Notes under the pieces: generated by a model
Databases searched by the model: none
What the model saw: the letters and a program-made list of their open reading frames with translations, nothing else
What the model was told of the DNA's origin: nothing
Virus record (IMG/VR): IMGVR_UViG_3300017917_000579
Span: 1 to 20,516 of that record
Length of the DNA stretch: 20,516 bases
From: a virus
Reading direction: 5' to 3' (one strand)
Translations under genes and position numbers: made by a program
In this document: piece by piece, positions 1 to 19,104 of the stretch
Layout of the letters: every line of letters starts with the position of its first letter
How positions within the stretch are numbered: the stretch's first letter is position 1

Positions 1-92
1 GCAGTTCTTAGAGCACTTTGGGCATTTATTTAATTTTACTATTTTTAGGGTTTAGCAACGTTAAAGGTCGCTCAAAGTGCTCTAAAAACTGC
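1..92. repeat. Long imperfect inverted repeat upstream of the first promoter
   Basis: Bases 1-23 pair with 70-92: 21 Watson-Crick pairs, one G-T pair (21/72) and one mismatch (7/86). The arms share the core AGAGCACTTTG / CAAAGTGCTCT, and the AT-rich loop is 46 bases. The right arm ends one base before the -35 box at 93. The arms may extend beyond the window edge. It could be a cruciform, an operator for a dimeric repressor, or the 3' hairpin of an upstream transcript; there is no T-tract right after it, which argues against a simple intrinsic terminator. Confidence 0.8.
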
Positions 93-121
93 TTGACAAA
101 CACCCGCAGAGGTGCTATAAT
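93..121 (+). promoter_or_regulatory. Perfect-consensus sigma70 promoter
   Basis: TTGACA (93-98) and TATAAT (116-121) are separated by exactly 17 bases, matching the bacterial housekeeping consensus at every position. Transcription would start near 128, giving a leader of about 23 bases with an AAGGAG ribosome binding site before the ATG at 151. This fits an early phage gene read by unmodified host RNA polymerase. It probably drives the tightly packed genes down to about 2816. Confidence 0.85.
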
Positions 122-150
122 CACAAAACACTAACAAAGGAGACTAGACA

Positions 151-1176
151 ATGACAGGCTTTGTAAAGATTAAACAAGGTAGTTATCGCAATCAAGCGAT
201 TAACAACGAAGTATTTCCACTGGTAAAACAGTATCAACTAGGCAGCAAAGGCGGCTTCCTTACTGTAGATGGTACAGGACGTTTTGGCAAAGACAAGATA
301 CGTGTAAGTATCGCAACTCCACAAGACTACGAATTTGTAGACGCAACAGAATACACAGGCACAGTCTCAACACAAGAAGTAGACACACATAGCAAACAAT
401 CAGATGAAGAACGTATTGCAGATATTGCACAACGTTTTGAAATACTTGAAGCAATGACTAAGGCTTGTTTGAACGGTGATGTACGTGCGCTGATTGTAAG
501 TGGCCCTCCGGGTGTAGGTAAGAGTTACATTGTTGAGGATCAAATTGAACGTGCTAACCTGTTCCAAAATATTGCTAACACTAAACCTAAACACACTGTG
601 GTTAAGGGTAGTGCTAGTGCTATTGGCCTGTACAAAACACTGTACGAATACAGCGACGAGAACAGCGTGGTAGTATTTGACGACTGTGACAGCATCTTGT
701 TTGATGATGTAAGTTTGAACTTGCTTAAAGGTGCACTTGACAGTGGTAAGTCACGTAAGATTAGTTGGTTGCTAGAATCACGTGTACTGAAAAATGAAGA
801 CATCCCTAACAGTTTTCAATTTAAGGGTGCAGTGATTTTTATCACTAACTTGAAGTTTGATGCAGTTAAGTCACAACGCCTAAAAGATCACTTAGAAGCA
901 CTACACAGTCGTTGCCACTATCTAGATTTGACACTTGATACTATGCGTGATAAACTGTTGCGTATCAAGCAAATTGCTAAGAGTGGTGCGCTGTTTGCAG
1001 AAATGGGTATTAGTGATGTTGGACAAGATGTTATTATTGACTTTTTGGACGCAAACAAGAATAAGGTACGTGAGATGAGCTTGCGTATGGCTATTAAGGT
1101 AGCACAGTTGTACAAGAGTTTTCCTACAAACTGGGAAGCAATGGCGGCAACTACTTGCTTTAAGACAGGAGCATAA
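151..1176 (+). CDS. AAA+ family ATPase
   Basis: A 341-residue protein with a clear AAA+ core in its middle: Walker A GPPGVGKS at residues 118-125, Walker B VVVFDDCD at 173-180, and a sensor-1-like ITN at 231-233. R254 is a possible arginine finger. The first ~70 residues precede the ATPase core, look beta-rich and have no assignment. AAA+ proteins of this type remodel protein or nucleic acid complexes using ATP; the target is unknown here. The ATG at 151 has a strong AAGGAG site and lies just downstream of a consensus promoter, so it is probably expressed early. Its TAA overlaps the ATG of the next gene by one base, implying translational coupling to the SGNH hydrolase. It is not the T4 clamp loader gp44 by any motif I can see. 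Confidence 0.85.
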   Translation: MTGFVKIKQGSYRNQAINNEVFPLVKQYQLGSKGGFLTVDGTGRFGKDKIRVSIATPQDYEFVDATEYTGTVSTQEVDTHSKQSDEERIADIAQRFEILEAMTKACLNGDVRALIVSGPPGVGKSYIVEDQIERANLFQNIANTKPKHTVVKGSASAIGLYKTLYEYSDENSVVVFDDCDSILFDDVSLNLLKGALDSGKSRKISWLLESRVLKNEDIPNSFQFKGAVIFITNLKFDAVKSQRLKDHLEALHSRCHYLDLTLDTMRDKLLRIKQIAKSGALFAEMGISDVGQDVIIDFLDANKNKVREMSLRMAIKVAQLYKSFPTNWEAMAATTCFKTGA

Positions 1177-1580
1177 TGCTTGATTGTTTAATCATAGGTG
1201 ACAGTATCGCTGTGGGCACTAAGATGTTTATGCCCCAGTGTGCTGACTATGCCAAAGGTGGCATTACCAGTCACGGATGGTTAAAGCGTTATAGCACTAA
1301 CGATCTCAGTGCTAACAGTGTTATTATCAGCCTAAGTACCAACGACTGGGAACGGGCTGATACTACTGCTAAACTACGTGAGATACGCGGCAAAGTTCGA
1401 GCCGCTCGAGTATTTTGGATTGAACCAAATCCAGAATCTAAACCTGATGCAGTAGCACACGTTAACCAAGTTGCCCGTGAGTTTGGTGATACTGTGATTA
1501 GAACCACACGCTGGCAAAAGGATAAGATACATCCAAGTTGGGCCGGTTACAAGGAACTTGCTGGTGCGACACAGAAGTAG
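1176..1580 (+). CDS. Compact SGNH/GDSL-type hydrolase
   Basis: A 134-residue protein with all four SGNH signature positions: GDS at residues 8-10 (nucleophile S10), G29 in KGGIT, N56 in STND, and D116/H119 in DKIHP at the C-terminus. SGNH enzymes are usually esterases or lipases acting on acyl groups of lipids, sugars or cell-wall polymers; here the substrate cannot be read. At 134 residues it is short for the family, which is often about 200, yet no catalytic block is missing. No signal peptide is visible. It starts inside the stop codon of the AAA+ gene (TAATG), so the two are probably co-translated. A role in modifying surface polysaccharide or envelope lipids is only inference. Confidence 0.8.
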   Translation: MLDCLIIGDSIAVGTKMFMPQCADYAKGGITSHGWLKRYSTNDLSANSVIISLSTNDWERADTTAKLREIRGKVRAARVFWIEPNPESKPDAVAHVNQVAREFGDTVIRTTRWQKDKIHPSWAGYKELAGATQK

Positions 1581-1869
1581 CACAACCGTTTACAGCCAGT
1601 GGATTAAGTTAGTTAAGAAGACTAACCCTAAAACTGGTCGTAAACACTACTCAGTGATTGTGGATAGTTATGGATACTTTGGTAGTTATCCTGGACTCAG
1701 TGGTTTAGATCTTAGACTAATCACAACTCTTTGGCGCAGTCATTTTGACCCTGCGGGTAATCGCGGCATGAGGACTTCCTTAAGTTTTAAATTTACTAAC
1801 AAAGAACAAGCAGAGCAACTTATTACCTTGGCATTACTCAAATGGGGAGAACGTTATGTGGCGAACTAA
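1564..1869 (+). CDS. Small protein of unknown function
   Basis: About 101 residues. It overlaps the end of the SGNH gene and the start of the following membrane-protein gene. The reading frame is open from a TTG at 1558, but I favour the GTG at 1564 because an AAGGA motif at 1551-1555 is 8 bases upstream of it and only 2 bases from the TTG. The protein is basic and soluble-looking, with a central aromatic stretch (SYGYFGSYPG) and a C-terminal helix rich in Leu, Ala and Glu. I do not recognise the family. Its position in the run of overlapping genes supports it being real. Confidence 0.6.
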   Translation: MRHRSSTTVYSQWIKLVKKTNPKTGRKHYSVIVDSYGYFGSYPGLSGLDLRLITTLWRSHFDPAGNRGMRTSLSFKFTNKEQAEQLITLALLKWGERYVAN

Positions 1870-2110
1870 AGCAATTAAATGGGCATGGATTACACTGGTA
1901 TTAAATGCCACTGTGGCATTAATGAACATAGGATTCAGTTACGGACATTTGATCAGACACGAATATTGGACCATGGCTATTAGTGTTAGCCTGGTTGTGC
2001 TCAACAGTTGGATAGCAGTGTGGCAATACAAGACCATAGTCAAGTATCGTGAAGAAATTAAAGAACTTATGTGGCGTACCCTATCAACTCCCTCGGAGCA
2101 GTTAAGATGA
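1856..2110 (+). CDS. Small membrane protein, two transmembrane segments
   Basis: 84 residues with two hydrophobic segments, roughly residues 9-30 and 39-58, and a charged C-terminal tail (KYREEIKEL) likely in the cytoplasm. A GGGGAG site lies 6 bases before the ATG. The gene overlaps the 3' end of the previous one by 14 bases and ends in an ATGA overlap with the next. Family unknown. It is the first of a run of very small membrane proteins whose function might be in envelope modification, superinfection exclusion or lysis control; the sequence does not decide. Confidence 0.65.
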   Translation: MWRTKAIKWAWITLVLNATVALMNIGFSYGHLIRHEYWTMAISVSLVVLNSWIAVWQYKTIVKYREEIKELMWRTLSTPSEQLR

Positions 2111-2271
2111 GATTACTATTAGCAATGATTTATAACTTGATTATTTTATCAGGCACTGTATACCTAGTAGGTTGGCAGGGCTGGAGTGCTTGGTGGTTCC
2201 TATTAACAGTATTACTATTGGCCAGTGGTAAGGACGAATGTAAAACTGGCCGTAAATTTTATGAGGAGTAA
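2107..2271 (+). CDS. Tiny membrane protein
   Basis: 54 residues, almost entirely two hydrophobic segments (about residues 2-21 and 25-40) followed by a short charged tail. The frame is open from a GTG at 2071, but the ATG at 2107 is the better start: it has a GGAG motif at 2095-2098 with 8-base spacing and forms an ATGA overlap with the upstream stop. A membrane-inserted role is the only safe statement. Unknown family. Confidence 0.6.
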   Translation: MRLLLAMIYNLIILSGTVYLVGWQGWSAWWFLLTVLLLASGKDECKTGRKFYEE

Positions 2272-2275
2272 CACT

Positions 2276-2452
2276 ATGTCACCGTATGTAAAACAAATTC
2301 TTTTTATCGTAACAGGTATTTTCCTAGTTGGACTAGTGGGCGTCTATAATGAAACAGCACAACGCTTACTTGGCCTGGTTCGCATTTGGGTGGATGTTAT
2401 CAGACATCGCCCGTGCTGCATTTCCCTCAGATTCAAAATAACACAGGAGTAA
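2276..2452 (+). CDS. Tiny membrane protein
   Basis: 58 residues from the ATG at 2276, which has a GAGGAG site 7 bases upstream; an in-frame ATG at 2225 lies inside the previous gene and is less likely. Residues 7-25 form one transmembrane helix. The C-terminal third (with RHRPCC) reads less like a natural protein, and a second frame across the same DNA (2349-2441) encodes a more typical small membrane peptide. The true 3' part of this gene is therefore uncertain. Confidence 0.5.
   Translation: MSPYVKQILFIVTGIFLVGLVGVYNETAQRLLGLVRIWVDVIRHRPCCISLRFKITQE
2349..2441 (+). CDS. Possible overlapping micro-ORF
   Basis: 30 residues beginning MKQHNAYLAW with a hydrophobic stretch (about residues 8-25) and a polar end. 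It lies entirely inside the gene at 2276-2452 in another frame. There is no clear ribosome binding site before its ATG. It is listed because its composition resembles the neighbouring small membrane proteins better than the frame it overlaps. It may be a real nested gene, or the continuation of the upstream frame after a frameshift. Confidence 0.3.
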   Translation: MKQHNAYLAWFAFGWMLSDIARAAFPSDSK

Positions 2453-2457
2453 TATAA

Positions 2458-2646
2458 ATGGAATTTTTAGAATATTTTAAGTTAGGCACACCACTTACCA
2501 CAGGGCAAGCATTTTTCCTAATGTGGTTTTTTGGTGCAGTTGGTGGTTATTGTTTTGGTCGCGCACATGCCGCATTTATTACCTTAGGTAAGTTAAGCGA
2601 TCGTGTTAACGCAACCGTTGAACGTTTGAATAAGGATGTAAAATAA
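2458..2646 (+). CDS. Small membrane protein, single transmembrane segment
   Basis: 62 residues with one glycine-rich hydrophobic segment (about residues 18-36, FFLMWFFGAVGGYCFG) and an amphipathic C-terminal helix ending in Lys. An AGGAG site lies about 8 bases before the ATG. Its stop codon TAA overlaps the next ATG by one base. The glycine-rich helix could mediate oligomerisation, as in small pore-formers, but no holin family can be assigned. Confidence 0.6.
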   Translation: MEFLEYFKLGTPLTTGQAFFLMWFFGAVGGYCFGRAHAAFITLGKLSDRVNATVERLNKDVK

Positions 2647-2816
2647 TGTTTAATAAAATCTATCGTTGGTTTGTTAAGTATGATGTAGAAATCTGTTGGT
2701 TCCTAACAGGTTGGTTCGCCGCAGAGTTCTTCCATGACTTTGCTCATGGCAACTGGTTTGCGGCTATTATTGATTTGATCTTGGTCGTAGTCAACATCAG
2801 TTTCTACAAAAAATAA
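2646..2816 (+). CDS. Tiny membrane protein closing the early gene run
   Basis: 56 residues, beginning [15 protein letters not shown] and ending in FYKK. It has a tryptophan- and phenylalanine-rich N-terminal half and a hydrophobic segment at about residues 37-53. An AAGGA site (2632-2636) lies 9 bases before the ATG, and the start overlaps the stop of the previous gene (TAATG). Unknown function. It is the last gene before the formate-tetrahydrofolate ligase unit. Confidence 0.6.
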
Positions 2817-2820
2817 AGTA

Positions 2821-2830
2821 TGTAAATACT
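2821..2830 (+). promoter_or_regulatory. T4-late-like promoter box before the ligase gene
   Basis: TGTAAATACT at 2821-2830, followed by AGTATG. It resembles the T4 late promoter core TATAAATA. With the T4 geometry (box from -13 to -6) transcription would start at 2834, the A of the ATG, so the mRNA would be leaderless; there is no ribosome binding site upstream. The box plus ACTAGTATG recurs before the primase gene at 19602. Confidence 0.5.
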
Positions 2831-2833
2831 AGT

Positions 2834-4441
2834 ATGAAGTCAGACATCAAAATCAATCAAGGCTACAAGGCCAAACCTATCAAAGACGTTGCTAAAAAAC
2901 TAGGGCTCAAAGACATCGAGCCCTATGGCAACTACAAAGCCAAAGTTGATCCCACACAAGTTAAAAACAAGTCGTGGGGTCGACTCATACTAGTCACAGC
3001 AGTAACACCGACACCCGCTGGTGAAGGTAAGACCACAACAACCATTGGCCTGGCAGATGGCCTACGTAAGTTACGATACAATAGTATTGTCTGCTTACGT
3101 GAGCCTGCGCTGGGTCCAGTGTTTGGTATGAAGGGTGGCGCTACTGGGGGTGGGTATGCTCAGGTATACCCCATGGAAGATATTAACCTACATTTTACAG
3201 GGGACTTCCATGCTATTGCTTCAGCACATAACTTGTTAGCTAGCCTAATAGACAACCACTTACACTGGGGTAATGCGCTGAATTTAGACACTAATCGTAT
3301 TACATGGCGTAGGGTCAGCGACATGAACGATCGTGCGCTACGCGACGTTTGTGTAGGTCTAGGAGCCCATAACAGCGTCACACGTCAAACAGGCTACGAC
3401 ATTGTAGTAGCAAGTGAAGTAATGGCCTGCTTATGTTTAGCAGGTGGATTCCAGGATTTAAAACGTAGATTGGGTAACATTACTGTAGGTTATACCTTGG
3501 ATAATAAGCCCGTTATAGCACGAGACCTTAAGGCCGAAGGTAGTATGGCAGCTTTGCTAAAAGATGCTGTAAAACCTAACCTAGTGCAGACCTTAGAAGG
3601 CACTCCTGCGCTGATACACGGCGGCCCATTTGCTAACATAGCACATGGCTGTAACAGTGTAATCGCCACTAAATTAGGCTTAAGATTGGCTGAATATGTG
3701 GTAACAGAAGCAGGATTTGGCGCCGATTTGGGTGCTGAAAAATTCATTAACATCAAATGTCGTAAAAGCGGGCTAAAGCCTGATGCTGTGGTACTTGTAG
3801 CCACTGTAAGGGCAGTTAAACACTGGGGTAACTATGATAACTTGGACAAACATATAGCCAATATCAAAACGCACTATAACCTGCCTTGTGTGGTTGCTGT
3901 AAACCGTTTTGCTGACGACACTGACGCAGATGTTCAAGCATTAATTGATCATGTTAGAACTACGTTTAACATTGAAGCAGTGGAAAGCACACACTTCCGT
4001 GATGGTGGTAAGGGTGCTACAGATCTAGCACACGAAGTTATCATGGCCATTGATGAGTCAGAAAAGACCATGGAATTGACCTACAAAGATGAAGATACAT
4101 TGTGGGATAAACTTAACACAGTGGCACGTAATATCTATGGTGCCAGTGGTGTTAGTATGGATGCTAAAGTTAGTAAGCACTTAGATTATTTACAGCAACA
4201 CTATGGCAATTACCCTATTTGTATAGCCAAAACACAGAGCAGTTTTAGTGATGACCCCTCTAACAAAGATGCTGCTACACAGTGGCACACACTAACCGTG
4301 CGTGAGTTAAGATTATGCTCGGGCGCAGAGTTTATTGTAGCCATTTGTGGTAACATTATGACCTTACCAGGTCTACCAGAACGGCCCAACGCTGAGCGTA
4401 TTGATATCAATTCTAAGGGTGACATAATAGGACTTGATTAA
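2834..4441 (+). CDS. fhs: Formate-tetrahydrofolate ligase
   Basis: A 535-residue protein that looks like a complete formate-tetrahydrofolate ligase, the enzyme making 10-formyl-tetrahydrofolate from formate, ATP and tetrahydrofolate. It feeds purine synthesis and formyl-methionine. Visible signatures: the P-loop [10 protein letters not shown] at residues 61-70, the [20 protein letters not shown] region at about 100-119, [11 protein letters not shown] in the middle, and the C-terminal [18 protein letters not shown]. The bacterial enzymes are about 555-560 residues, so this is slightly short but shows no missing block. It has its own promoter-like box, apparently no Shine-Dalgarno site, and a strong terminator 60 bases downstream, so it looks like a separate transcription unit. 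Composition looks like its phage neighbours. As a phage gene it would be an auxiliary metabolic gene boosting nucleotide supply, which is inference. Confidence 0.95.
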
Positions 4442-4532
4442 ATATTTAGGTAGTACTCCATTGCACTTTCTATTGTCTAGCTCCTTGTGCAATGGCCTTA
4501 TAGCCCAAATGGAAACATTTGGGCTTTTTTTT
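4423..4532 (+). ncRNA. Candidate small RNA downstream of the ligase
   Basis: A possible promoter sits at the 3' end of the ligase gene: TTGATA (4401-4406), 16 bases, CATAAT (4423-4428), which would start RNA near 4435. The 98-base product would hold a 9-bp hairpin CCATTGCAC/GTGCAATGG (4458-4466 with 4487-4495, 20-base loop) and then the intrinsic terminator hairpin and T-tract ending at 4532. The first hairpin has no T-tract and is not needed for termination. It could instead be a 3' untranslated structure of the ligase mRNA. The pairing is visible; the RNA itself is inferred. Confidence 0.35.
4503..4532 (+). terminator. Strong intrinsic terminator
   Basis: GCCCAAATG (4503-4511) and CATTTGGGC (4516-4524) form a perfect 9-bp stem closed by a GAAA tetraloop, followed by eight T residues (4525-4532). 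This is a textbook Rho-independent terminator on the plus strand. It ends the formate-tetrahydrofolate ligase unit and sits immediately before the -35 element of the next promoter (from 4534). Confidence 0.92.
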
Positions 4533-4533
4533 C

Positions 4534-4562
4534 TTGCAAATCAGATTTAAATATCATATACT
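4534..4562 (+). promoter_or_regulatory. Sigma70-like promoter with leaderless geometry
   Basis: TTGCAA (4534-4539), 17 bases, TATACT (4557-4562). The ATG at 4569 begins 6 bases after the -10 element, so transcription would start at or beside the start codon. No Shine-Dalgarno motif precedes this ATG. The spacing from -10 to ATG is the same as before the primase gene at 19602. Confidence 0.6.
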
Positions 4563-4568
4563 AATAGT

Positions 4569-5693
4569 ATGTTAAAGTTTACACACGTCGAAGACTACAT
4601 CGAAGTACTAGCAGGCTATGATCCAGGATCTACAGTCTTGTTTAACACTGGCAAGTACACGTTCAGTTTGGCTCGCTATGATGTTAAAATAGTTGAAAGT
4701 ATGGCCAATGCCACAGTGTGGAGCAGTATGGCTCTTACTGATCGGCAAGGTGAACTGGCACTTAAACTTGTAGAAAAGTATCGCAGACAATATGCTAATC
4801 AAGGCATAGATATCACACCCGTTATTGAAAATCCCTCGTGGCGTATGCCCTTACGCAAAGTTGATCGCACACAGCGCATTTGGTTAGAAGATGGTGAAAT
4901 TAAAATTAAATTTCCCTACAATCAAAATTGGATTGATGACATACGTGGTTTTAAAGAAGTTAGTCAAGGACATGCTGAGTGGCGTAATGACAACAAGCAC
5001 TGGAGCCTAGGCCTAACAGAATATAATGTTAATTGGGTAGTAGCCTGGGGTGAAACATGGAAAATTGATATTGACCCAGAAGTCAGAGATCTGTACAATA
5101 AAATATTGCTAGCAGAAACCGAATCATACGAAATTAAACTAATACAACACGAAGATCGTTTTGAAATTACCAATGCAGCTGAGTCTCTGATCAACTACAT
5201 TAACGAACACCTAGGCGGCTTTGGCCTAGACAATGTCACCCGATTAGTTGACTCAGCAGGTGTGTTAGGCTACACAGTTGATCGTGGTATTAAATATGAT
5301 GAACTATTAGATCTATTTGGACCAGAACGATTGGTGCACGTACCAAGTACAGAATCAGGCAGTTTAGACCTGATATTTGACTATGCTGAACTAACAGATC
5401 GCTGGCCAGTGTACATATATAATCCAGGTACAAGTCAGCAAATTGATCTTAGTAGATTTACCGACAGCGAAATAGTTAAATTTGACCCTGCAGGTAAGAC
5501 TAAAAGATCTGACTACAACTTTTGGACTACCAAGGTAATCTATGTTAATAAGATACCCAAGGTGTGGGAGTGGCCAATACCATTGTTAGTTAGCACAGTA
5601 GAAATGATGTACGGTGGCAGTCGTATGGAATGGATGACACGTGCAGAAAAAATTATACATTATAGTTATGTTCCTTTGAGAGAAAAATCCTAA
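4569..5693 (+). CDS. Unknown protein with annealing-helicase-like accessory segment
   Basis: 374 residues, not recognised as a whole. Residues 109-152 (GEIKIKFPYNQNWIDDIRG through NDNKHWSLGLTEYN) follow the pattern of the HARP-type or helicase-accessory segment seen before SNF2-like annealing helicases: a hydrophobic strand, a helix ending in an arginine-containing turn, then W...K.W. No Walker motif is present, so it is not itself an ATPase. It starts without a Shine-Dalgarno site and its TAA overlaps the ATG of the UvsW gene (TAATG), implying fixed stoichiometry with UvsW. A DNA-binding partner or targeting subunit for the helicase is a reasonable inference; it could equally be a structural or regulatory protein. 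Confidence 0.6.
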   Translation: MLKFTHVEDYIEVLAGYDPGSTVLFNTGKYTFSLARYDVKIVESMANATVWSSMALTDRQGELALKLVEKYRRQYANQGIDITPVIENPSWRMPLRKVDRTQRIWLEDGEIKIKFPYNQNWIDDIRGFKEVSQGHAEWRNDNKHWSLGLTEYNVNWVVAWGETWKIDIDPEVRDLYNKILLAETESYEIKLIQHEDRFEITNAAESLINYINEHLGGFGLDNVTRLVDSAGVLGYTVDRGIKYDELLDLFGPERLVHVPSTESGSLDLIFDYAELTDRWPVYIYNPGTSQQIDLSRFTDSEIVKFDPAGKTKRSDYNFWTTKVIYVNKIPKVWEWPIPLLVSTVEMMYGGSRMEWMTRAEKIIHYSYVPLREKS

Positions 5694-7150
5694 TGGCCAC
5701 AGCCAGATTACTGATAAAAGATGAAGTAAATGTAAAGATAGAAGGCTTAGATTTACATGAACGCAAAGAACTTAGTAACAAGTTCAAATATGAAATACCT
5801 GGTGCACGTTACTTGCCTGCTGTTCGACTAGGACGCTGGGATGGCAAGGTTGGATTCTTTCAACTGGGTGGCAGTACCTATATCAACTTACTTCCAGAAA
5901 TACTCCCTTACCTAGACAGTCGCGGTTATGATATTGACCTACAGGATGTGCGTGAGTATCGCACGCAGTTTGATTTTGATCAAGTAACTGAAGAAACTTT
6001 TGCACACAAGGTATGGCCAGACAAGCACCCTATGGCAGGGCAACCTGTGGTTCTGCGTGACTATCAAATTGAAATTATCAACAAGTTCTTAGAGAATCCG
6101 CAGTGCATACAGGAAGTAGCTACAGGCGCAGGTAAGACCTTAATGACAGCGGCACTTAGTTATAGCTGTGAACCACATGGACGTACTATTGTTATCGTTC
6201 CGAACAAAAGCCTAGTAACACAAACAGAAGCAGACTATATTAATCTAGGCTTAGATGTGGGCGTGTACTTTGGTGACCGTAAAGAGTTTGGACATCAGCA
6301 TACAATCTGTACTTGGCAAAGTCTAAACATCTTACTTAAGAACACCAAGGGGGGTGAAGCAGACATTACCATTATGGAGTTTTTAGAAGATGTTGTCTGT
6401 GTTATGGTTGACGAAGTACACATGGCCAAAGCAGATGCGCTTAAAACTCTACTCACAGGTGTAATGGGTCATATACCAATCCGCTGGGGCTTAACTGGAA
6501 CTATACCTAAGGAAGCCTATGAACAGGTTAGTCTACTGTGCAGTCTAGGACCAGTAGTAGGTAAACTCAGCGCCAGTGAACTTCAAGAACAAGGTGTACT
6601 AGCTAACTGTCATGTAAATATCTTACAACTTGTAGACTATGTAGAATACAAGGACTATCAATCAGAACTACGCTATCTATTAGAAACAGACGAAAGGTTG
6701 GATTATATAGCACAGCTAGTTGAATCAATTAGATCTTCGGGCAATACACTAATCCTAGTAGATCGTATAGCACCGGGGCGAGCCTTAGTAGAAAAAATTC
6801 GTGATGCAGTATTTGTTTCAGGAGGAACTAAAGCAGATGACCGTAAAGAACACTATGACGATGTGGCAACAAGTGAAGACAAAGTTATTGTCGCCACGTA
6901 TGGTGTTGCCGCTGTTGGCATTAACATCCCTCGTATTTTTAATTTGGTTTTGGTGGAGCCTGGCAAAAGTTTTGTTAGGGTTATTCAAAGTATAGGACGC
7001 GGTATTCGCAAAGCCGAAGACAAGGATTTTGTACAGATTTGGGACATAACCAGTACCTGCAAGTTTGCCAAACGGCACCTTACAACTCGTAAGAAGTTTT
7101 ATACAGAAGCAAACTATCCGTATCAGGTAGAAAAAGTGGAGTGGCGATGA
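5693..7150 (+). CDS. uvsW: UvsW-like superfamily 2 DNA helicase
   Basis: 485 residues, close to T4 UvsW (about 500). Helicase motifs in order: LRDYQIEII (Q-like region, 121-129), Walker A ATGAGKT (143-149), DEVH (240-243), LTGT (267-270), and motif VI QSIGRGIRK (432-440). The N-terminal ~100 residues match the small DNA-binding domain position of UvsW. In T4 this enzyme unwinds branched DNA, reverses stalled forks, dissolves R-loops and switches replication from origin to recombination initiation. Translation is coupled to the upstream 374-residue protein and downstream to the SGNH-like gene through an ATGA overlap. Other phage SF2 helicases share these motifs, but size and setting favour UvsW. 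Confidence 0.88.
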   Translation: MATARLLIKDEVNVKIEGLDLHERKELSNKFKYEIPGARYLPAVRLGRWDGKVGFFQLGGSTYINLLPEILPYLDSRGYDIDLQDVREYRTQFDFDQVTEETFAHKVWPDKHPMAGQPVVLRDYQIEIINKFLENPQCIQEVATGAGKTLMTAALSYSCEPHGRTIVIVPNKSLVTQTEADYINLGLDVGVYFGDRKEFGHQHTICTWQSLNILLKNTKGGEADITIMEFLEDVVCVMVDEVHMAKADALKTLLTGVMGHIPIRWGLTGTIPKEAYEQVSLLCSLGPVVGKLSASELQEQGVLANCHVNILQLVDYVEYKDYQSELRYLLETDERLDYIAQLVESIRSSGNTLILVDRIAPGRALVEKIRDAVFVSGGTKADDRKEHYDDVATSEDKVIVATYGVAAVGINIPRIFNLVLVEPGKSFVRVIQSIGRGIRKAEDKDFVQIWDITSTCKFAKRHLTTRKKFYTEANYPYQVEKVEWR

Positions 7151-7836
7151 ATATTATTGTCTGCGGTGATAGTTGGGCTACACCAGATAAAAGAATACCT
7201 GGGGCACATTTCAGTGAAATTTTAGCTGACAAGTATAAATTTACAGTAACTAACTTGGCAAGAGGTGGTATAAGTAACATTGGGATATGTTTTCAACTTC
7301 AGCACGCATTAACGAACATGGCTCCAACTGTTATTATTCTTTGTTCAACAGACTCTGACAGATTAAATTTTGCTGTAGGAGACTATAAACCCGAGCACGG
7401 ATTAAAAAATATAAGATACACTGATGATGTTAGTGCCACTTGCGGTAGTCCTTTCGTAGGAGATGATGATGCTCCGGTTATTGACGATGTTGCTTTGGTA
7501 TTAGCCCAGGGCAATGATTGGACCAGACCTAGTAAATCTAAAAAATATAAATTAACATCGGCCCAGTGGGAGGCGATTCGCCAATATGTCACGTATTTAC
7601 ATAACAGAGAAATGCAAATGACTATAGATACCTGGGCTTTACAATATTGGATGATGACAGCCTCTGCTAGAAAAATTCCCATACTTGATTTCCATGATTA
7701 CTGGGACATCATTTACCAAAAACATAATATCCCGTCTAGCGGCAACGGGCACTATGTATTTCATACAGAACCATCTCTGCAGATAGAGATTGCTGAACTT
7801 GTAGTAAATGATTTAAAAGGTAAAGGATTGATTTAA
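7147..7836 (+). CDS. SGNH-like hydrolase, divergent
   Basis: 229 residues from the ATG at 7147, chosen because GGAG at 7138-7141 lies 5 bases upstream and the ATG overlaps the UvsW stop; a GTG at 7141 would add two residues. It opens like an SGNH hydrolase: VCGDSW at residues 5-10 (S9), then ARGGISN around 38-44. The usual block III Asn is replaced by STDSDR (67-72), and the C-terminal block is GHYVFHTEPS, with a His but no clear D-x-x-H. Activity is therefore less certain than for the compact SGNH enzyme at 1176. No signal peptide is seen. Similar proteins in phages are often near tail or glycan-related genes; here it follows a helicase. Confidence 0.6.
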   Translation: MNIIVCGDSWATPDKRIPGAHFSEILADKYKFTVTNLARGGISNIGICFQLQHALTNMAPTVIILCSTDSDRLNFAVGDYKPEHGLKNIRYTDDVSATCGSPFVGDDDAPVIDDVALVLAQGNDWTRPSKSKKYKLTSAQWEAIRQYVTYLHNREMQMTIDTWALQYWMMTASARKIPILDFHDYWDIIYQKHNIPSSGNGHYVFHTEPSLQIEIAELVVNDLKGKGLI

Positions 7837-7841
7837 AATCT

Positions 7842-7919
7842 ATGAAACAGTTTAACCAATGCAAAATATTAGAAAAAGATGAATCAGCTGTAATGCTAGC
7901 AAGAAAACTTAAAGGATAG
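7842..7919 (+). CDS. Possible micro-ORF
   Basis: 25 residues beginning MKQFNQCKILEKDESA, charged and helix-prone. It fills the gap between the SGNH-like gene and the gene at 7922. No good ribosome binding site precedes it. The AAAGGA before the next ATG overlaps its last codons, so it could merely be a leader peptide or chance. Confidence 0.25.
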   Translation: MKQFNQCKILEKDESAVMLARKLKG

Positions 7920-7921
7920 AC

Positions 7922-8422
7922 ATGTATATTTTAACACTAGAAAATCAAGCATACGAAATGAATGAGATCCCGGATGAGGTAGATGACCTACGTTTTGCGA
8001 TATTGGACAACAGCGATCCTAAAAATCCAGACTACTTTTTTATTCCCCTAATCTTTTTAGAAAGTTTTAATGCACCTGCATTGGTTTTGAGCATTGGCGG
8101 CAATCTAGTTAAGATGCCTGTGGATTGGCAAATCTTAATAGGTGAACCTGAAATAGGAGATTTAGAAGTTATTCCGTTAAGCAGTATTAATGATCGCGGG
8201 TTCAGTGCCTTTACTTTTAATCCGTTGGGTAGTTTTAAACCAGAATTTCTTCCTATAGAAATAGTTGACATATATCAAGACGTTAAATGGTATTTTCCTA
8301 AATTGAAGCCAGGACAAATGCTAGCAGTACCAGTTACAGATGGTGAACAACCAATGTGTGCGTATTTTGTAAAAGATATCAGCAGACAAAGCGAAGTTGT
8401 TGATTATGGGAAGATATGGTAG
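7922..8422 (+). CDS. Conserved-looking phage protein of unknown function
   Basis: 166 residues with an AAAGGA site 5 bases before the ATG. It is acidic at the N-terminus and rich in beta-forming hydrophobic runs (FFIPLIFLESF, ALVLSIGGN, WYFPKLKPGQMLAVPV) and ends VKDISRQSEVVDYGKIW. No catalytic motif, zinc ligand pattern or membrane segment is evident. Its stop falls two bases before the preferred ATG of the next gene, so it belongs to the same operon. I cannot name it. Confidence 0.65.
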   Translation: MYILTLENQAYEMNEIPDEVDDLRFAILDNSDPKNPDYFFIPLIFLESFNAPALVLSIGGNLVKMPVDWQILIGEPEIGDLEVIPLSSINDRGFSAFTFNPLGSFKPEFLPIEIVDIYQDVKWYFPKLKPGQMLAVPVTDGEQPMCAYFVKDISRQSEVVDYGKIW

Positions 8423-8423
8423 T

Positions 8424-8690
8424 ATGGGCAATCTTAAACCAGGTGCAACCTACATTTATGAACGTGTGGACAATGTGGTCTATGCCCGAGAAGCAGGTAG
8501 TGATCCCAGTACTCGATTTGAAATTGGCCGCGACTATGATCCAAAAGCCAAATCATGGGGGGAACGGGTATTAGAAGACAAAATGTGGGGTGAAATTCGC
8601 CGGATGGCTCTAACCAATCCCACTTTACAAGATGCGGTAGATCGTGTTATAATGATATATAAGTTAAGCAAGGAATACAATGATGTTTAA
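8424..8690 (+). CDS. Small conserved-looking phage protein
   Basis: 88 residues from the ATG at 8424. In-frame starts at 8397 (TTG) and 8406 (ATG) would overlap the previous gene; the 8424 start has a GGGAAG motif 10 bases upstream and gives a protein beginning MGNLKPGATYIYERV. The protein is charged, soluble and mostly helical in its second half. No known motif. Its end overlaps the next gene by 11 bases. Confidence 0.6.
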   Translation: MGNLKPGATYIYERVDNVVYAREAGSDPSTRFEIGRDYDPKAKSWGERVLEDKMWGEIRRMALTNPTLQDAVDRVIMIYKLSKEYNDV

Positions 8691-8916
8691 CCCAGACCAA
8701 TTTAAACCAAAAAAGAAACGTGCAGTAGACCCAAATGCGCCACCTCGCCCAAATCTATTAAGCCAGGACAAGAAACTGCGCGAGCAGACGGAAGCGGTAA
8801 GTAGACTGGTGCAGATAGTTCAACGCCAGCAAGATGAGATTGAAAGCCTACGCACTAAGTATCAGCAGATGCAACAGAGCATAGATCAATTAGTTAATGT
8901 ATTGAGAAGAAAATAA
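8680..8916 (+). CDS. Small coiled-coil protein
   Basis: 78 residues. A basic, proline-rich N-terminus (KPKKKRAVDPNAPPRP, about residues 9-24) leads into one long helix from about residue 30 to the end with heptad spacing of Leu, Val and Ile and many Gln and Glu residues, so a dimeric or trimeric coiled coil is likely. AAGGA lies before two tandem ATGs (8680, 8683). Its TAA overlaps the ATG of the next gene by one base. It may be an adaptor or DNA-binding cofactor; a T4 equivalent cannot be assigned. Confidence 0.6.
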   Translation: MMFNPDQFKPKKKRAVDPNAPPRPNLLSQDKKLREQTEAVSRLVQIVQRQQDEIESLRTKYQQMQQSIDQLVNVLRRK

Positions 8917-9392
8917 TGGCAACAGACTTCAACAGTCCACTATATATCGGTAACGAAATGGCAGCATTTGATCGTAAAGATCGTGCGTATTATGATAAGT
9001 TTACTGATGAAGAACGCAAACAGTTTTCAACTTATCTAATGCTACGCTACGGTGCTAGTGTAGAAGGCAGTGTAGACTTTCAGAGTTATTATCTGCTGGC
9101 TACAAATGAGAATGTAAACAAACATTTCTTTGACTTAAACAAGCATCCTAAACTACAATGGTTAATGTGTACCACTGTTAGTCCAAACATGGGCAAACAA
9201 AAACACTATTGGCAACCTGCTAAGAAAAAAGAAGGCAGTAACAACAAAGCAATTAAGTTTTTAACAGAACAGTTCCCCCAACTCAAAGAAGATGAAATCA
9301 AACTACTAGCAGCTATAAATGATAGATCAGATCTTACAGACATGGCAAGAAAACTCGGCTGGGATGACAAACGTATCAAGTCAGACTTATAA
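8916..9392 (+). CDS. Probable clamp-loader small subunit, gp62-like
   Basis: 158 residues. The pattern resembles T4-like gp62 of marine phages: an early KQFSTYLMLRYGAS block, an aromatic middle with NENVNKHFFDLN and LQWLM, a HYWQPAKKK block near residues 97-105, and a C-terminal helical part with KAIKFLTEQFPQLKEDEIK. In T4, gp62 joins gp44 to load the sliding clamp gp45. T4 gp62 is 187 residues and phage versions are often shorter, so the length fits. No ATPase motif is present, as expected. The match is a remembered family pattern, not an alignment, and gp44 and gp45 are not in this window. Start is coupled to the previous gene by TAATG. Confidence 0.5.
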   Translation: MATDFNSPLYIGNEMAAFDRKDRAYYDKFTDEERKQFSTYLMLRYGASVEGSVDFQSYYLLATNENVNKHFFDLNKHPKLQWLMCTTVSPNMGKQKHYWQPAKKKEGSNNKAIKFLTEQFPQLKEDEIKLLAAINDRSDLTDMARKLGWDDKRIKSDL

Positions 9393-10065
9393 GTGTAAGT
9401 ATTGTGGCAAAGAGTACCGCAAGGAATCAACTCTTGCGGCGCATCTATGCGAAAGCAAACGACGCTGGCAACAGGAAAAAGAACAAGGAGTCCAACTTGG
9501 ATTTCAAGCATACCTGCGATTCTTTGAGTTAACACAAGGTTCAGCTAAACTTAAAAGCTACAGTGATTTTGTAGAAAGTCCCTATTACAGCGCCTTTGTT
9601 AAATTTGGGCGTCACATGCAGAACATACGTGCTGTTAACCCTCGAACATTTATAGATTGGGTAATCAAACAGAATAAAAAACTTGACCACTGGACACACG
9701 AATCAGTATACTTAGAATATCTACATCAATATTTACGAAAGGAAGCAGTACAAGATGCACTGGAACGAGCACTTAACGAAATGCAAGACCACGTGGACAC
9801 CAACCCAGAAATTAAGGGAGGTCTCAGAGACTATTTTCGATACGGCCATAGCAATAGGATTTGCTTTCACATCAGTACGGGCCGTGTTAGTCCTTGGATT
9901 GTGTTTAATTGTACCTCAGGTATTGAGTTTCTTGAGTCGTTAAACGAAGAGCAATTGGCTATGATCTTACCTTGGATAGATCCGGATTATTGGCAACACA
10001 AGTTTAACGACTATCTAGCTGACACTGAATGGGTTAAGATGATATTGAGTGAGGCAGGACTATGA
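9364..10065 (+). CDS. Zinc-binding protein of unknown function
   Basis: 233 residues from the ATG at 9364. An in-frame ATG at 9319 would add 15 residues deep inside the previous gene; neither has a strong ribosome binding site, so the start is uncertain. A zinc-finger-like pattern sits at the N-terminus: C11, C14, H27 and C29 in YKCKYCGKEY and LAAHLCESKRR, followed by a basic patch. The remaining 200 residues are mixed helix and strand, with a long amphipathic helix around EYLHQYLRKEAVQDALERAL and a conserved-looking IDPDYWQHKFNDYLADTEW near the end. It lies between the gp62-like gene and a coiled-coil gene, so nucleic-acid binding in replication or late transcription is a fair guess. I do not recognise a named family. 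Confidence 0.65.
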   Translation: MTNVSSQTYKCKYCGKEYRKESTLAAHLCESKRRWQQEKEQGVQLGFQAYLRFFELTQGSAKLKSYSDFVESPYYSAFVKFGRHMQNIRAVNPRTFIDWVIKQNKKLDHWTHESVYLEYLHQYLRKEAVQDALERALNEMQDHVDTNPEIKGGLRDYFRYGHSNRICFHISTGRVSPWIVFNCTSGIEFLESLNEEQLAMILPWIDPDYWQHKFNDYLADTEWVKMILSEAGL

Positions 10066-10232
10066 GTGATCGTGTTACTGGAGAGCTTGTACAACTACGC
10101 AGTGAGGTGTTATACTTAATACGTCTAGTTGAAAAGTTAGAAAAGAAAATTACTCAACTTGAAGATACAGTTAAAAAGACAGAACAAAAGCCACAAGATC
10201 CTTTTCAAGGAAAAATAATTGAAAAACTTTAA
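10062..10232 (+). CDS. Small coiled-coil protein
   Basis: 56 residues beginning MSDRVTGELVQLRSEV. Residues 6-42 form a continuous helix with heptad-spaced Leu, Val and Ile and alternating Lys and Glu, typical of a coiled coil. It starts in an ATGA overlap with the zinc-protein gene and its last 14 bases overlap the start of the mini-DnaE gene, so all three are probably translated together. Function unknown. Confidence 0.6.
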   Translation: MSDRVTGELVQLRSEVLYLIRLVEKLEKKITQLEDTVKKTEQKPQDPFQGKIIEKL

Positions 10233-10809
10233 GTCAGACATTGACATAGACTTTGCTGATCGTGATCAGATTCTATCGTTATTAGATGTTACACCAAGTA
10301 GCATAATTCGCGATGGTAAATTAGTTCGGCATAACACAGGTGTGCATCCAACTGAGATTCCTGTGGATCCTTTTACTGGATATGCTAGCCTAGACTACAA
10401 CGATGCAGAAGATCGCGGTTATATTAAACTAGACTTTCTTAATGTTAACTTATATAAGCAGGTCCGTGATGAACAACACTTAGTAGAACTAATGCGTGAG
10501 CCTGATTGGACTAAGTTATATGATCTAGCAATATGTAGTCAGTTAATTCATGTGAACAATCATTATGATACCTTGCTGAAAATGCCCGAGCCTGTGGACA
10601 CTGTGGCTAGATTAGCTATGTTTCTAGCAGTTATTCGTCCAGCCAAACGACATCTAATAGGCAAAAGTTGGAAGGATGTTAGTCTTACTATTTGGGACAA
10701 AGTTGAGGGCGAATATGCGTTTAAAAAGTCACATGCGATTGCTTATGCAAATCTTGTAGTAGTAAATCTTAACCTACTCTGCGAACCAGCGTTATCGAAC
10801 GACGCTTAG
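10219..10809 (+). CDS. Miniature DnaE-like (DNA polymerase III alpha) protein
   Basis: 196 residues from a TTG at 10219, with CAAGG 8 bases upstream. Five landmarks of bacterial DnaE occur in the correct order: SDIDIDF (6-12) matching the PDFDVDF catalytic motif with D7 and D9 in the positions of E. coli D401 and D403; RHNTGVHP (37-44) matching the RNAGKHAGG region; GYIKLDFL (67-74) with D72 in place of D555; VARLAMFLAVIRP (129-141) matching the region around ALFRPGP; and FKKSHAIAYA (168-177) matching FNKSHAAAYA. E. coli DnaE has 1160 residues. The PHP domain, the GPGRGSGAGS motif, the thumb and most of the fingers are missing. It could be a minimal nucleotidyltransferase, a decoy of host polymerase, or a replisome adaptor. 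Its end overlaps the convergent gene. Confidence 0.7.
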   Translation: MKNFKSDIDIDFADRDQILSLLDVTPSSIIRDGKLVRHNTGVHPTEIPVDPFTGYASLDYNDAEDRGYIKLDFLNVNLYKQVRDEQHLVELMREPDWTKLYDLAICSQLIHVNNHYDTLLKMPEPVDTVARLAMFLAVIRPAKRHLIGKSWKDVSLTIWDKVEGEYAFKKSHAIAYANLVVVNLNLLCEPALSNDA

Positions 10810-16036: not shown

Positions 16037-18517
16037 GTGAGTATCATACAAGCGATCATAGGCACTAATCTAACCATATCCGCAGGTGGAGGTGGCGGAG
16101 GTGGCGGAGGTGGTGGAGTTTCACCAGATGGCACACACTTCTGGGATGGTTCTCCTATAGTCTGGGGCTCCGCAGGCATAGATCCATACAAACCTACATA
16201 CAATGCCACCTACAGTTTTCCAGATGGTTTTACTAATGCTCAGATGTGGGATTTCAATGGCGTTAATCAGTTAATGACCACTGGTCCATTTAGTAATGTT
16301 AGTCAGGTTTATATGAACATTTGGTTCTATCCCACAGCCGCTGGTTGTATATTAATGACTATACAGGGACAGGCCACAGAAAATGTTAACTACCATCACG
16401 CAGCCTTGACTATAAATAGCAATCAAACTGTCACTGGAGGATTCTGGGCAGGTATGAACATTGGTTCAATGACCACTGTCAACACAGTGACCTTAAATGC
16501 TTGGAATCATATCTACTTTAGACACAACGGCACACAGGCTCTACTACAGTTGAATGGCGGTACAGCGGTCACAGCCACCCATTCCTGGGAGTTACAAGGC
16601 AATCCATTTGTGGCAGGATTTGGTACAACCAGTATAACCAACAGTGGAATCAGCGCCAGATATCAAGGCATGCTGGCAGAATTTAGATTGAACTTTGGTA
16701 ACACAGCCAGCAACTATGATTCCACAAGAAGTATCTACGAAGCACCACAACAGTTCATCTATGATGACTTTACCATTGAGTGGTGGCAGAAAGCAGAAGC
16801 CATTGGCGTAAACAGCCGCCCTTGGTGTATCGGCTTGCTAGGCGAGCCGTCTGGACAGGTAGTGAGCATTAGCTATGAAGGCAATGGTCGCGACTATTTC
16901 TGGATCAACAACGGTTTCCCGGCACAACAAGAATACAGACCCTTAAAGAATCACTATGGCATAGGTTGGGAACACATGGCTATAGTGCGTAAAGACAACA
17001 CAGTAAAACTTTATTCAAATGGTAGCGAGTACATGTTGTGGCCCTATGCTAATCAAGCCATAACAGCAACCAATGCCAATCTTGTAGTGGGTACAGGTGA
17101 ATTAGCGGCAGGCAACTTCCAAGGTTATATCAAAGACCTACACGTTATCAAAGGTACTGCCAAGTACACTACAAACTTCCTAGTGCCTACAACACCTATA
17201 CAGCCCCAGACTGGGTCAGTATTTCTGTTACCAGCCGCAGCATCAGGCACAGCATTTGATGACACGGTAGGTAACAAAGTTGGCACAGCCACCAATACAC
17301 CAACTTGGAGTTCTGACAATCCCTTCCAGTGGCCAACTCAGACATTTACAGCCTTTGCTTATGGCTCAAACAGAATAGCACTAAATTCTCCATATGTGAA
17401 CAATCCCGTTGTAGGTCTAAAAGTCAGCGACACTCAAGGCTGGAGTGACTATGTTACCAGCGTGGATCTAGCCTTTCATTTAGATTTTGACAATAGTGTA
17501 CCTGTAAGAGCACCGGGCGAAGTTTATACTATCGAAGAAGCAGCCATTTCAAAATTTACTAACTCGGGTAGTTTTAATGGAAGTATAGGTAATTTAGACT
17601 TTGGTGGTGCTAATTACTGGAAGGCTTTAGAGATAGTCAAACCTGGATGGACGGTGAGCACAGGAGGGCCAACCTTAGGTGTAGTAACTTCGGTGCAGAC
17701 TAATCTTGCTCCTAACTTTATACGAATAAATGTAAACTTTGATCCTGGTTCAGTATATGATACCTATACATTTACTCCTGCTTACGGCGGCAGTATACGC
17801 TTTGATGCAGGGGACCGTATCAACTATGGTGCTAGCGTAGACTGGGCCTTTGACGTTGACGGCATTGCCACTGACAGTCTAACATTGAATCTTGATGCTA
17901 ATAATATTAACAGTTACCCTGGCACAGGCACTAGTTGGAATGATCTAGGCCTAGGCAACTTCCCATACACATTGTATGGAGCACCTTATTGGGACAATGG
18001 TCCTCCAGGTTCGTTCAACTTCAATGGAACGAATCAGTATGCCACAGGTCCCAATGTAAATCTTCTGCCTGGTTCTGGTTATACAAAAATGGTATGGTTT
18101 AGACTTAACACTCTAAACGCAGACAATAACCTAGTCAGCAGTGACGGTGGGGGGCACTACATGTTCTTCTCAGGCAGTAGCACACTCTATGCTGGACACG
18201 CTAACGTTCCTCCATACCAAGGAGCAGGAGCATTTGGTTCAACTTCTACATTTGGTATTAACACTTGGTATTGTGCTACAGTAACTTTCTCTGTGGCCAA
18301 TGGTCTTAAACTGTATGTAAACGGAGTTTTAGACAGACACGATCCTGCCTACCAAACACCTCACGGCGGAACAGGATCTACTAACATTGCCTGTTTTGGC
18401 GCAGGTGGTAATCTGTTAAATGGTAAGATCGGGCGAGTGCTATGTTACAGTAAAGAACTTACCTCAGGCGAAGTGTTACAGAACTTCAATGCTACGAGAA
18501 ATCGTTACGGAATTTAA
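16037..18517 (+). CDS. Tail-fibre adhesin with three LamG-type lectin domains
   Basis: 826 residues from a GTG at 16037 with TAAGGA 6 bases upstream. After a short N-terminus (MSIIQAIIGTNLTISA) comes a run of 11 glycines (17-27). Three concanavalin-A-like/LamG lectin regions follow at about 51-235, 236-385 and 610-826; the second has KLYSNGSEY and FQGYIKDLHVIKGTAKYT, and the third has LNLDANNINSYPGTGTSWND, KLYVNGVLDRH and a closing GEVLQNFNATRNRYGI, a very common end of phage LamG fibres. Residues 430-600 form another beta-rich spacer. LamG folds bind glycans, so this is likely a receptor-recognition protein on the virion working with the fibre encoded 9 bases upstream. It ends convergently on the QueC-like gene with a 4-base overlap. 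Confidence 0.85.
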   Translation: MSIIQAIIGTNLTISAGGGGGGGGGGGVSPDGTHFWDGSPIVWGSAGIDPYKPTYNATYSFPDGFTNAQMWDFNGVNQLMTTGPFSNVSQVYMNIWFYPTAAGCILMTIQGQATENVNYHHAALTINSNQTVTGGFWAGMNIGSMTTVNTVTLNAWNHIYFRHNGTQALLQLNGGTAVTATHSWELQGNPFVAGFGTTSITNSGISARYQGMLAEFRLNFGNTASNYDSTRSIYEAPQQFIYDDFTIEWWQKAEAIGVNSRPWCIGLLGEPSGQVVSISYEGNGRDYFWINNGFPAQQEYRPLKNHYGIGWEHMAIVRKDNTVKLYSNGSEYMLWPYANQAITATNANLVVGTGELAAGNFQGYIKDLHVIKGTAKYTTNFLVPTTPIQPQTGSVFLLPAAASGTAFDDTVGNKVGTATNTPTWSSDNPFQWPTQTFTAFAYGSNRIALNSPYVNNPVVGLKVSDTQGWSDYVTSVDLAFHLDFDNSVPVRAPGEVYTIEEAAISKFTNSGSFNGSIGNLDFGGANYWKALEIVKPGWTVSTGGPTLGVVTSVQTNLAPNFIRINVNFDPGSVYDTYTFTPAYGGSIRFDAGDRINYGASVDWAFDVDGIATDSLTLNLDANNINSYPGTGTSWNDLGLGNFPYTLYGAPYWDNGPPGSFNFNGTNQYATGPNVNLLPGSGYTKMVWFRLNTLNADNNLVSSDGGGHYMFFSGSSTLYAGHANVPPYQGAGAFGSTSTFGINTWYCATVTFSVANGLKLYVNGVLDRHDPAYQTPHGGTGSTNIACFGAGGNLLNGKIGRVLCYSKELTSGEVLQNFNATRNRYGI
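16085..16117 (+). repeat. Poly-glycine GGN tract
   Basis: Eleven consecutive GGN codons (GGT, GGA, GGC mixed) encode a flexible glycine linker near the N-terminus of the LamG adhesin. An internal GGTGGCGGA unit is repeated. Synonymous mixing of codons suggests selection for the glycine run itself, though length change by slippage is possible. Confidence 0.85.
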
Positions 18518-19104
18518 CGAATCTTTTGTTCTCGTAGTTTAACGCAGGTATCACACTGACCACAGGGTTTGATACTGTTTTCTAAGTAAACAGGACGACG
18601 ACAACTCCAAAACATGTTACGCACCGACTCTGGTAGCAGGTCATATATCTCACGTTTGGTCAAATTCAACACAGGATAAATCTTTTCTGCATCAGTAAAC
18701 GCTGACAATATCTTATTACCGCGAATTCTACGATCTTCTAAACTGTAGTTACCATCATTGGCCTGCATACCCATGGCAACTTTTTTAATATTTGGGTTAA
18801 CGCTACAAACATAACCAGCAAAGAAGTTCATAGTGTCTGTGTCGAATAAGAAATACTTGCCAAAAGGCGGCGCTCCTATTTCACTTTCACTGTAGGCAAA
18901 TTTGAAACCTAATGTGTGTAGTTGTTGTAGGGCGGAATTTACAGCCAATTGTTCTGCTCGCCAACGGTTCTCTACATTCTTGTTGTGAACATGATGTATG
19001 TGGACAGCATAGTCCTTGTAGGCTTCTTCAGTTAAGAGTTTGTATACCATACCCAGGCTGTCTAGGCCGCCTGAATACATGGCTAGGATTGTAGGTTGTT
19101 CCAT
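18514..19104 (-). CDS. QueC-like PP-loop ATPase (7-cyano-7-deazaguanine synthase family)
   Basis: 196 residues. The N-terminus carries the PP-loop SGGLDS (residues 11-16) that binds ATP, and the C-terminus has four cysteines, C168, C181, C184 and C187, in the order and spacing of the QueC zinc site (SCRRP ... CGQCDTC). NYSLEDRRIRGNKI (119-132) lies where QueC has its YPDCR-like loop. QueC makes preQ0 from carboxy-deazaguanine with ATP and ammonia, for queuosine tRNA or for deazapurine modification of phage DNA against restriction. Bacterial QueC is about 220-230 residues, so this is somewhat short. No queD, queE, folE or transglycosylase gene is visible here, so the exact product is open. Its start overlaps the upstream gene on the same strand by 22 bases. 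Confidence 0.75.
   Translation of the reverse strand: MEQPTILAMYSGGLDSLGMVYKLLTEEAYKDYAVHIHHVHNKNVENRWRAEQLAVNSALQQLHTLGFKFAYSESEIGAPPFGKYFLFDTDTMNFFAGYVCSVNPNIKKVAMGMQANDGNYSLEDRRIRGNKILSAFTDAEKIYPVLNLTKREIYDLLPESVRNMFWSCRRPVYLENSIKPCGQCDTCVKLREQKIR

Follow-up and report, generated by a model that had tools for sequence, protein, structure and literature searches.

A formate-tetrahydrofolate ligase gene at the end of a conserved phage operon: a probable metabolic gene of one jumbo-phage clade

Background

Why would a phage carry a gene for formate-tetrahydrofolate ligase (FTHFS), and is such a gene a working, settled part of the viral genome or a recent arrival? FTHFS converts formate, ATP and tetrahydrofolate (THF) to 10-formyl-THF, ADP and Pi. 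The question is raised by a stretch of 20,516 bases, one entire IMG/VR record, that we analysed as a whole and call the window (Table 1). A preliminary description had taken the gene for a moron, an added gene with its own box-type promoter and terminator, possibly hinting at a one-carbon-using or formate-oxidising host. We propose, with a probability of about 0.7, that the gene encodes a working FTHFS and is a fixed metabolic gene of one jumbo-phage clade; within this reading, we infer the parts that concern transcription and formate salvage.

Among the open-licence PMC papers listed by our searches, we found no report of a phage FTHFS. The excerpts of PMC10994693 and PMC8889253 that mention FTHFS name it for cellular, not viral, proteins. 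The words tetrahydrofolate, fhs and formate are absent from the main text of a survey of methane genes (PMC10904782; word-start matching), and tetrahydrofolate, folate and formate are absent from the Lak phage classification (PMC11165621), though Lak records encode an FTHFS relative.

Table 1 Features of the window around the ligase gene and on its far side
Feature	Position	Strand	Details
Sigma-70-type promoter of the ligase operon	93..121	+	TTGACA-N17-TATAAT, 12/12 consensus
AAA ATPase gene, first of the operon	151..1176	+	phrog_1250 (2.2e-83); Pfam AAA; syntenic among relatives
Seven small genes	1176..2816	+	Overlapping or abutting; gaps -47 to +5 bases
TGTAAATA box, possible late promoter	2821-2828	+	Ends 5 nt before ATG
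Formate-tetrahydrofolate ligase	2834..4441	+	535 aa
Conserved RNA hairpin	4458..4495	+	Invariant GCTCCT in loop
Intrinsic terminator, operon end	4502..4533	+	10-pair stem and T run
Promoter-like site (sigma-70 type) for the genes that follow	4534..4562	+	TTGCAA-N17-TATACT, 9/12
Gene c4	4569..5693	+	374 aa; syntenic neighbour; no family match (Pfam, PHROG)
UvsW-type helicase	5693..7150	+	phrog_16 (9.6e-78); syntenic neighbour, used for phage placement
QueC-like protein	18514-19104	-	Pfam 1.3e-06; phrog_1550 4.2e-17

The ligase protein

The ligase open reading frame matches the Pfam FTHFS family (PF01268) over its full length (1.4e-230; 766.7 bits against a cut-off of 27) and passes the NCBIfam PRK13505 cut-off (775 vs 652 bits), which confirms that the gene is full length. 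It matches eight distinct PDB sequences, each of them carrying the name FTHFS or formyltetrahydrofolate synthetase. An AlphaFold2 model (mean pLDDT 80.5, pTM 0.85) agrees with solved FTHFS at a TM score of 0.93 by query length; pLDDT falls below 50 in five stretches, including 91-101, 118-123 and 265-272, near conserved motifs.

Residues K66, R89, E90 and F295 of the window ligase align with K74 (the P-loop Lys), R97, E98 and F304 of the Moorella enzyme (4ioj), residues with catalytic roles. All 124 aligned rows keep their equivalents unchanged, and the loss of active-site residues for which we looked was not seen at these positions. Substitutions against the two closest relatives are mostly silent (dN 0.033 and dS 0.508 against L002; dN 0.102 and dS 1.117 against L003), more distant pairs being near saturation; on these values the ligase is under purifying selection. 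The kept catalytic residues and the mostly silent substitutions make enzyme activity likely. The gene counts as an auxiliary metabolic gene, a host-type metabolic enzyme in a virus that selection keeps functional.

Relatives and origin of the viral ligase

Among 50,697 phage records, 40 match FTHFS, and the window protein has no PHROG match, in keeping with the earlier remark that the ligase is not known as a standard T4-like gene. The 40 comprise Lak phages, unnamed gut phage contigs, and Staphylococcus, Listeria and Enterococcus records, of which part may be host DNA. The Lak megaphage and gut phage records show that FTHFS relatives occur on phages elsewhere too; most span the whole query and full-length matches are 43-52 % identical to the window ligase. 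The Lak-like and other viral branches lie apart from that of the window ligase in the tree.

A protein query found 31 viral loci and a profile query 51, largely on the same contigs. We placed the window ligase in a 124-row tree made by a quick method (seven short rows, L021, L022, L023, L025, L026, L157 and L160, and re-fetched locus copies are left out, and L175, a partial match, has no row). It falls within a 22-row all-viral clade with an SH-aLRT of 100 and a stem of 0.5. This clade joins five other viral rows (support 97), and the joined group stands beside the Bacillota and Pseudomonadota groups and outside both, at a fork that the tree does not resolve. Other viral FTHFS sit on separate branches; four changes of the viral label are needed, of which well-supported branches force only one. 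One of these other viral loci, L030, contains an in-frame stop in its ligase match.

Identity in the best segment stays at or below 58 % for all of the best 80 bacterial matches. There thus appears to be no recent donor to name, and the phylogeny that had been suggested as a way to the donor group yielded none. The ligase looks like an old gene common to one jumbo-phage group rather than a recent stray gene.

Could it be a methylotroph gene matched to its host, boosting C1 or formate assimilation in a one-carbon-using bacterium? We consider this unlikely. By identity, the nearest bacterial sequences do include several from Betaproteobacteria, some of them methylotrophs (54-58 %, among the best 80 matches), but the viral clade is not nested among the methylotroph rows. 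Relatives of the window phage encode AdoHcy hydrolase and MetK, which recall the SAM-cycle genes of the T4-like methylophages VP_139 and VP_266 from Lake Baikal; excerpts of the paper on these phages (PMC7678222) connect nucleotide synthesis with formate and with the SAM-cycle genes of phages, the nearest idea to our own below that we found in print, and use the word tetrahydrofolate once, as a pathway name, with no FTHFS named. According to the same excerpts the methylophages also carry methanol dehydrogenase and peptide deformylase, whereas neither was found in the records of the present kin that we searched. For methanol dehydrogenase this means 0 of 20 records, a weak test in which no control genome passed the cut-off. 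The host suggested by the preliminary description is therefore unsupported, and we return to an old viral gene as the preferred reading.

A variant branch of a known enzyme

With bacterial FTHFS (PF01268, PRK13505; structures 7xzp, 4jim, 5a4j and 7c11) the window ligase shares the full-length family match, the fold, the P-loop and the R97, E98 and F304 residues, but its identity to the bacterial rows compared is 51-61 % or less, and two features set it apart. The loop after AVK has 6 residues in all 22 clade rows vs 23 in 80/80 bacterial rows, so that 17 residues are absent throughout the clade relative to bacteria; here and below the bacterial rows are the best 80 matches, not drawn from the FTHFS family at large, and the viral rows include identical copies. 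The loop is of 12 residues in 5/5 sister rows and of 12, 21 or 23 in the remaining viral rows, Lak-like and other viral branches spanning 12-23. The second feature is the position of Trp412, described in excerpts of PMC11559097 as the folate-stacking residue of FTHFS. It is Phe388 in the window ligase, and Phe in 19, Tyr in one and Trp in two of the 22 rows. Trp occupies it in all five sister viral rows, in 3 of 17 other viral rows and in 78 of the best 80 bacterial matches, the other two having Phe. Because natural Phe exists, Trp412 is not strictly family-defining.

With 17 loop residues lost and Trp412 replaced in 20/22 clade rows, kinetics or role could differ from those of the bacterial enzyme. 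It is conceivable that the short loop and the lost Trp412 mark a new substrate or a regulatory role that has replaced FTHFS activity. The uniformity of the 6-residue loop and the rarity of Trp in the clade speak for such a change, but the other tested catalytic residues are invariant, the Trp412 position is aromatic in 22/22 rows, and Phe is accepted there by bacteria too; we regard a replaced activity as improbable. The protein is an enzyme of a known kind, and the viral branch with its clade-wide deletion apparently a new variant, in which both the deletion and the changed folate-stacking residue are directly testable.

Operon structure and transcription signals

The ligase was thought to form a transcription unit of its own. 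The gene layout argues otherwise, since the eight intergenic gaps from the AAA gene to the ligase measure only -47 to +17 bases, all on the + strand. The first of the seven small genes between them is GDSL-like (Pfam 3.6e-07, slightly below cut-off). All 14 loci whose sequence extends far enough have a promoter of the form TTGACA-N17-TATAAT ahead of the AAA gene, five of these loci being copies of one phage. The promoter spacer (99-115) contains an inverted repeat, CACCCGCAGAGGTG (101-114, CACC...GGTG), and such a repeat is kept in kin. Its arms change together, to GCAC...GTGC in L006 and GCGC...GCGC in L032, suggesting a repressor site and possible operator.

The box-type promoter of the preliminary description stands in part. 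The TGTAAATA box is there, but the window has no excess of TATAAATA-like boxes with at most one mismatch (29 found vs 41 expected), and a strict T4 late promoter is rejected on that ground. The shorter TAAATA is about 7-fold enriched upstream of starts (36 vs 5.0 expected, for 297 starts in 13 related loci). In 15 of the 21 clade members, five of which are copies, it ends 5-9 nt ahead of the ligase start; the closest two, L002 and L003, lack it. With the pattern used, none of the 21 has a Shine-Dalgarno-like 4-mer before the ligase. A possible explanation is that TAAATA directs a late, leaderless or near-leaderless ligase transcript. The ligase would be transcribed from the sigma-70-type promoter of the operon, and perhaps also late from the TAAATA box.

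The strong terminator after the ligase is borne out. It is one of two 10-pair sites, among 12 terminator sites found vs 6.9 expected (1-10000). In the phages L115, L123 and L124, which have no ligase, hairpin and terminator lie directly 3' of the upstream gene, so that the ligase lies at the end of an existing operon, and a conserved one.

These findings bear on the moron interpretation, according to which the ligase arrived recently as a self-contained unit that brought along a promoter and a terminator. The TAAATA box just before the start in 15/21 relatives, the existence of sister phages without the ligase and its different genomic place in L012/L014 would all fit. The operon promoter is common to 14/14 loci, however, terminator and hairpin occur without the ligase, the box is missing in L002 and L003, and the all-viral clade is old and on a long stem. 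We give a moron little credence and keep to an operon gene of long standing.

A conserved hairpin at the locus

The hairpin between the ligase and the terminator is kept in 11 of 15 ligase-minus contigs that have the AAA gene and a uvsW about 80 % or more identical (copies merged); its pattern matched none of the more distant ligase-minus rows in the same list. It therefore belongs to the locus and not to the ligase. The arms covary: eight distinct arm pairs form 71 of 72 pairs, which 0 of 5000 shuffles reach; the pairs were counted by script, since MAFFT misaligned the left arm, and left arms were picked so as to pair best, a choice that biases the observed value upwards. The hairpin occurs once per record read, at this locus only, and has no Rfam match. 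The invariant GCTCCT in its loop is complementary to AGGAGC, which among AGGAG-type hexamers is the one most often seen ahead of starts in the lineage (20/297, vs 8, 6 and 6 for the others). The hairpin could act as a small RNA, or as a regulator in the 3' UTR, by pairing with Shine-Dalgarno sites.

Phage identity and stability of the locus

The UvsW-type helicase is 48-54 % identical to those of the jumbo phages Phosso and Atu_ph07 and the PA5oct group, among the best rows listed for 3161 records with a match. The window phage thus seems to resemble jumbo phages (>200 kb) through UvsW, the window itself being a 20.5-kb fragment; ligase-plus G010 has 259 kb and ligase-minus G031 338 kb. Unlike the window, the records named for Phosso, Atu_ph07 and PA5oct have no FTHFS match (they are outside the 40 of 50,697).

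As described earlier, phage genes flank the ligase on both sides (phrog_1250 and the UvsW-type helicase), and the arrangement is widely shared. A uvsW cluster lies downstream in 26 of the 37 ligase-bearing loci compared, in some with one inserted gene. The remaining 11 are L012 and L014, of one phage type, and nine loci of other viral lineages. In G010, of the L012/L014 type, the ligase is about 32 kb from uvsW, and one or more small genes separate ligase and c4 in L005, L006, L015, L023 and L024. We looked for a chimeric join and saw no sign of one. A misassembly, or bacterial DNA carried by a phage contig, is excluded for practical purposes by the identical gene order adjoining uvsW on 26 contigs and by the best 80 bacterial matches, all at or below 58 % identity.

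In a 24-row AAA tree, from which loci with no AAA match of at least 200 residues, including L115, are left out, the 11 ligase-plus rows lie on one side of a branch with support 100/100. A uvsW tree of 48 chosen rows needs three ligase changes, two of them forced by well-supported branches; L006 and L115 are out of place in it, which we read as probable recombination and loss. A further 22 records of the wider phage group contained no FTHFS (0/22). Within a large phage group the ligase characterises a single clade, and it has likely been lost at least once.

Metabolic context

To what use might the enzyme be put? GTP cyclohydrolase I (FolE) removes C8 from GTP, releasing it as formate. FolE, a QueD-like PTPS and a QueE-like radical SAM protein are encoded in each of the two longest records of the close clade, G010 and G013 (178 kb); these three are below NCBIfam cut-offs, FolE and PTPS passing Pfam and QueE being clear only in PHROGs. 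Both records also encode DHFR, ThyA and a phosphoribosyltransferase, and G010 additionally MetK. Of 26 records, many of which are fragments, two gave a FolE match. QueC (PF06508) was found in the window only, below cut-off in that search, G010 and G013 having no match. A TGT-like DpdA was found in 0 of 20 records, a search that a divergent DpdA could escape. The window itself has no FolE, ThyA, ThyX or FolD.

AdoHcy hydrolase is present in 9 of 11 ligase-plus records read vs 1 of 12 ligase-minus records read (G035). The G013 copy is shortened, matching over about 177 residues in a 225-aa ORF (~20935-21612), compared with about 430 aa in other kin. The close-clade records gave seven weak FolD matches (PF02882). 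Six lie inside AdoHcy hydrolase matches (G003, G004, G005, G006, G011 and G018) and were rejected as FolD; the seventh is in G008. True FolD occurs in 4 of 26 records, all from other viral FTHFS lineages (L027, L030, L031 and L155).

Of the 7 ligase-plus records that encode tRNAs, 5 have an initiator-type tRNA-Met gene, with a C/A or A/A 1x72 mismatch that we take to be the initiator signature: G002, G003, G006, G011 and G013, of which G006 and G011 are one phage type. These genes lie in arrays of 13-27 tRNA genes (L195:9553-9627 for the initiator type of G013), and those of G006, G011 and G013 have GGG/CCC anticodon-stem pairs. A 1x72 mismatch is likewise present in 4 of the 9 ligase-minus records that encode tRNAs. 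Absences of genes are partial for G002, G004, G005, G007, G021, G027, G028, G030 and G033 (small gaps) and for G035 (first 11 kb).

We suggest that during infection the ligase would activate formate to 10-formyl-THF, a form of formate salvage. A search of 18 records for peptide deformylase (PF01327) found none. Any formate from this enzyme would then be supplied by the host, and coupling to a phage deformylase is rejected; phage FolE would be a second source in the kin that encode it. The product could feed purine synthesis, the formylation of initiator Met-tRNA to fMet and, via host FolD, the synthesis of dTMP by ThyA, with DHFR renewing THF. A formyltransferase (PF00551) was found in 0 of 26 records.

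It is tempting to join these steps in a formate-recycling circuit of jumbo phages, in which FolE, acting for 7-deazaguanine synthesis by QueD and QueE, releases C8 of GTP and a virus-adapted FTHFS, its loop shortened and its folate stacking changed, recaptures it as 10-formyl-THF, feeding purines, dTMP (phage DHFR and ThyA) and the formylation of phage initiator tRNA. We put this forward tentatively, as a doubtful but possible scheme. If true, it would link phage DNA modification, purine supply and translation initiation. More generally, the ligase adds a formate-activating step to the known metabolic genes of phages, on a distinct viral branch of a well-studied enzyme.

FolE and initiator tRNA were rejected as ligase-specific partners, both being present in kin without the ligase; ligase-minus G031 has FolE, QueE, DHFR and ThyA. 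A source of formate and sinks for 10-formyl-THF in ligase-minus kin are thus useful to the ligase but no proof of why it is kept. Since FolE, DHFR, ThyA and initiator-type tRNA all occur in ligase-minus kin, and FolE in only 2/26 records, none of them explains the retention of the ligase by the clade.

Other genes of the window

Downstream of the helicase, the + strand gene at 9319-10065 has a weak C2H2 zinc-finger match below the Pfam cut-off and belongs to phrog_11058, of unknown function. The 196-aa protein encoded at 10219-10809 (+) matches phrog_11778, labelled DNA polymerase (1.4e-61), with no Pfam match, and represents a polymerase fragment that is a separate conserved gene.
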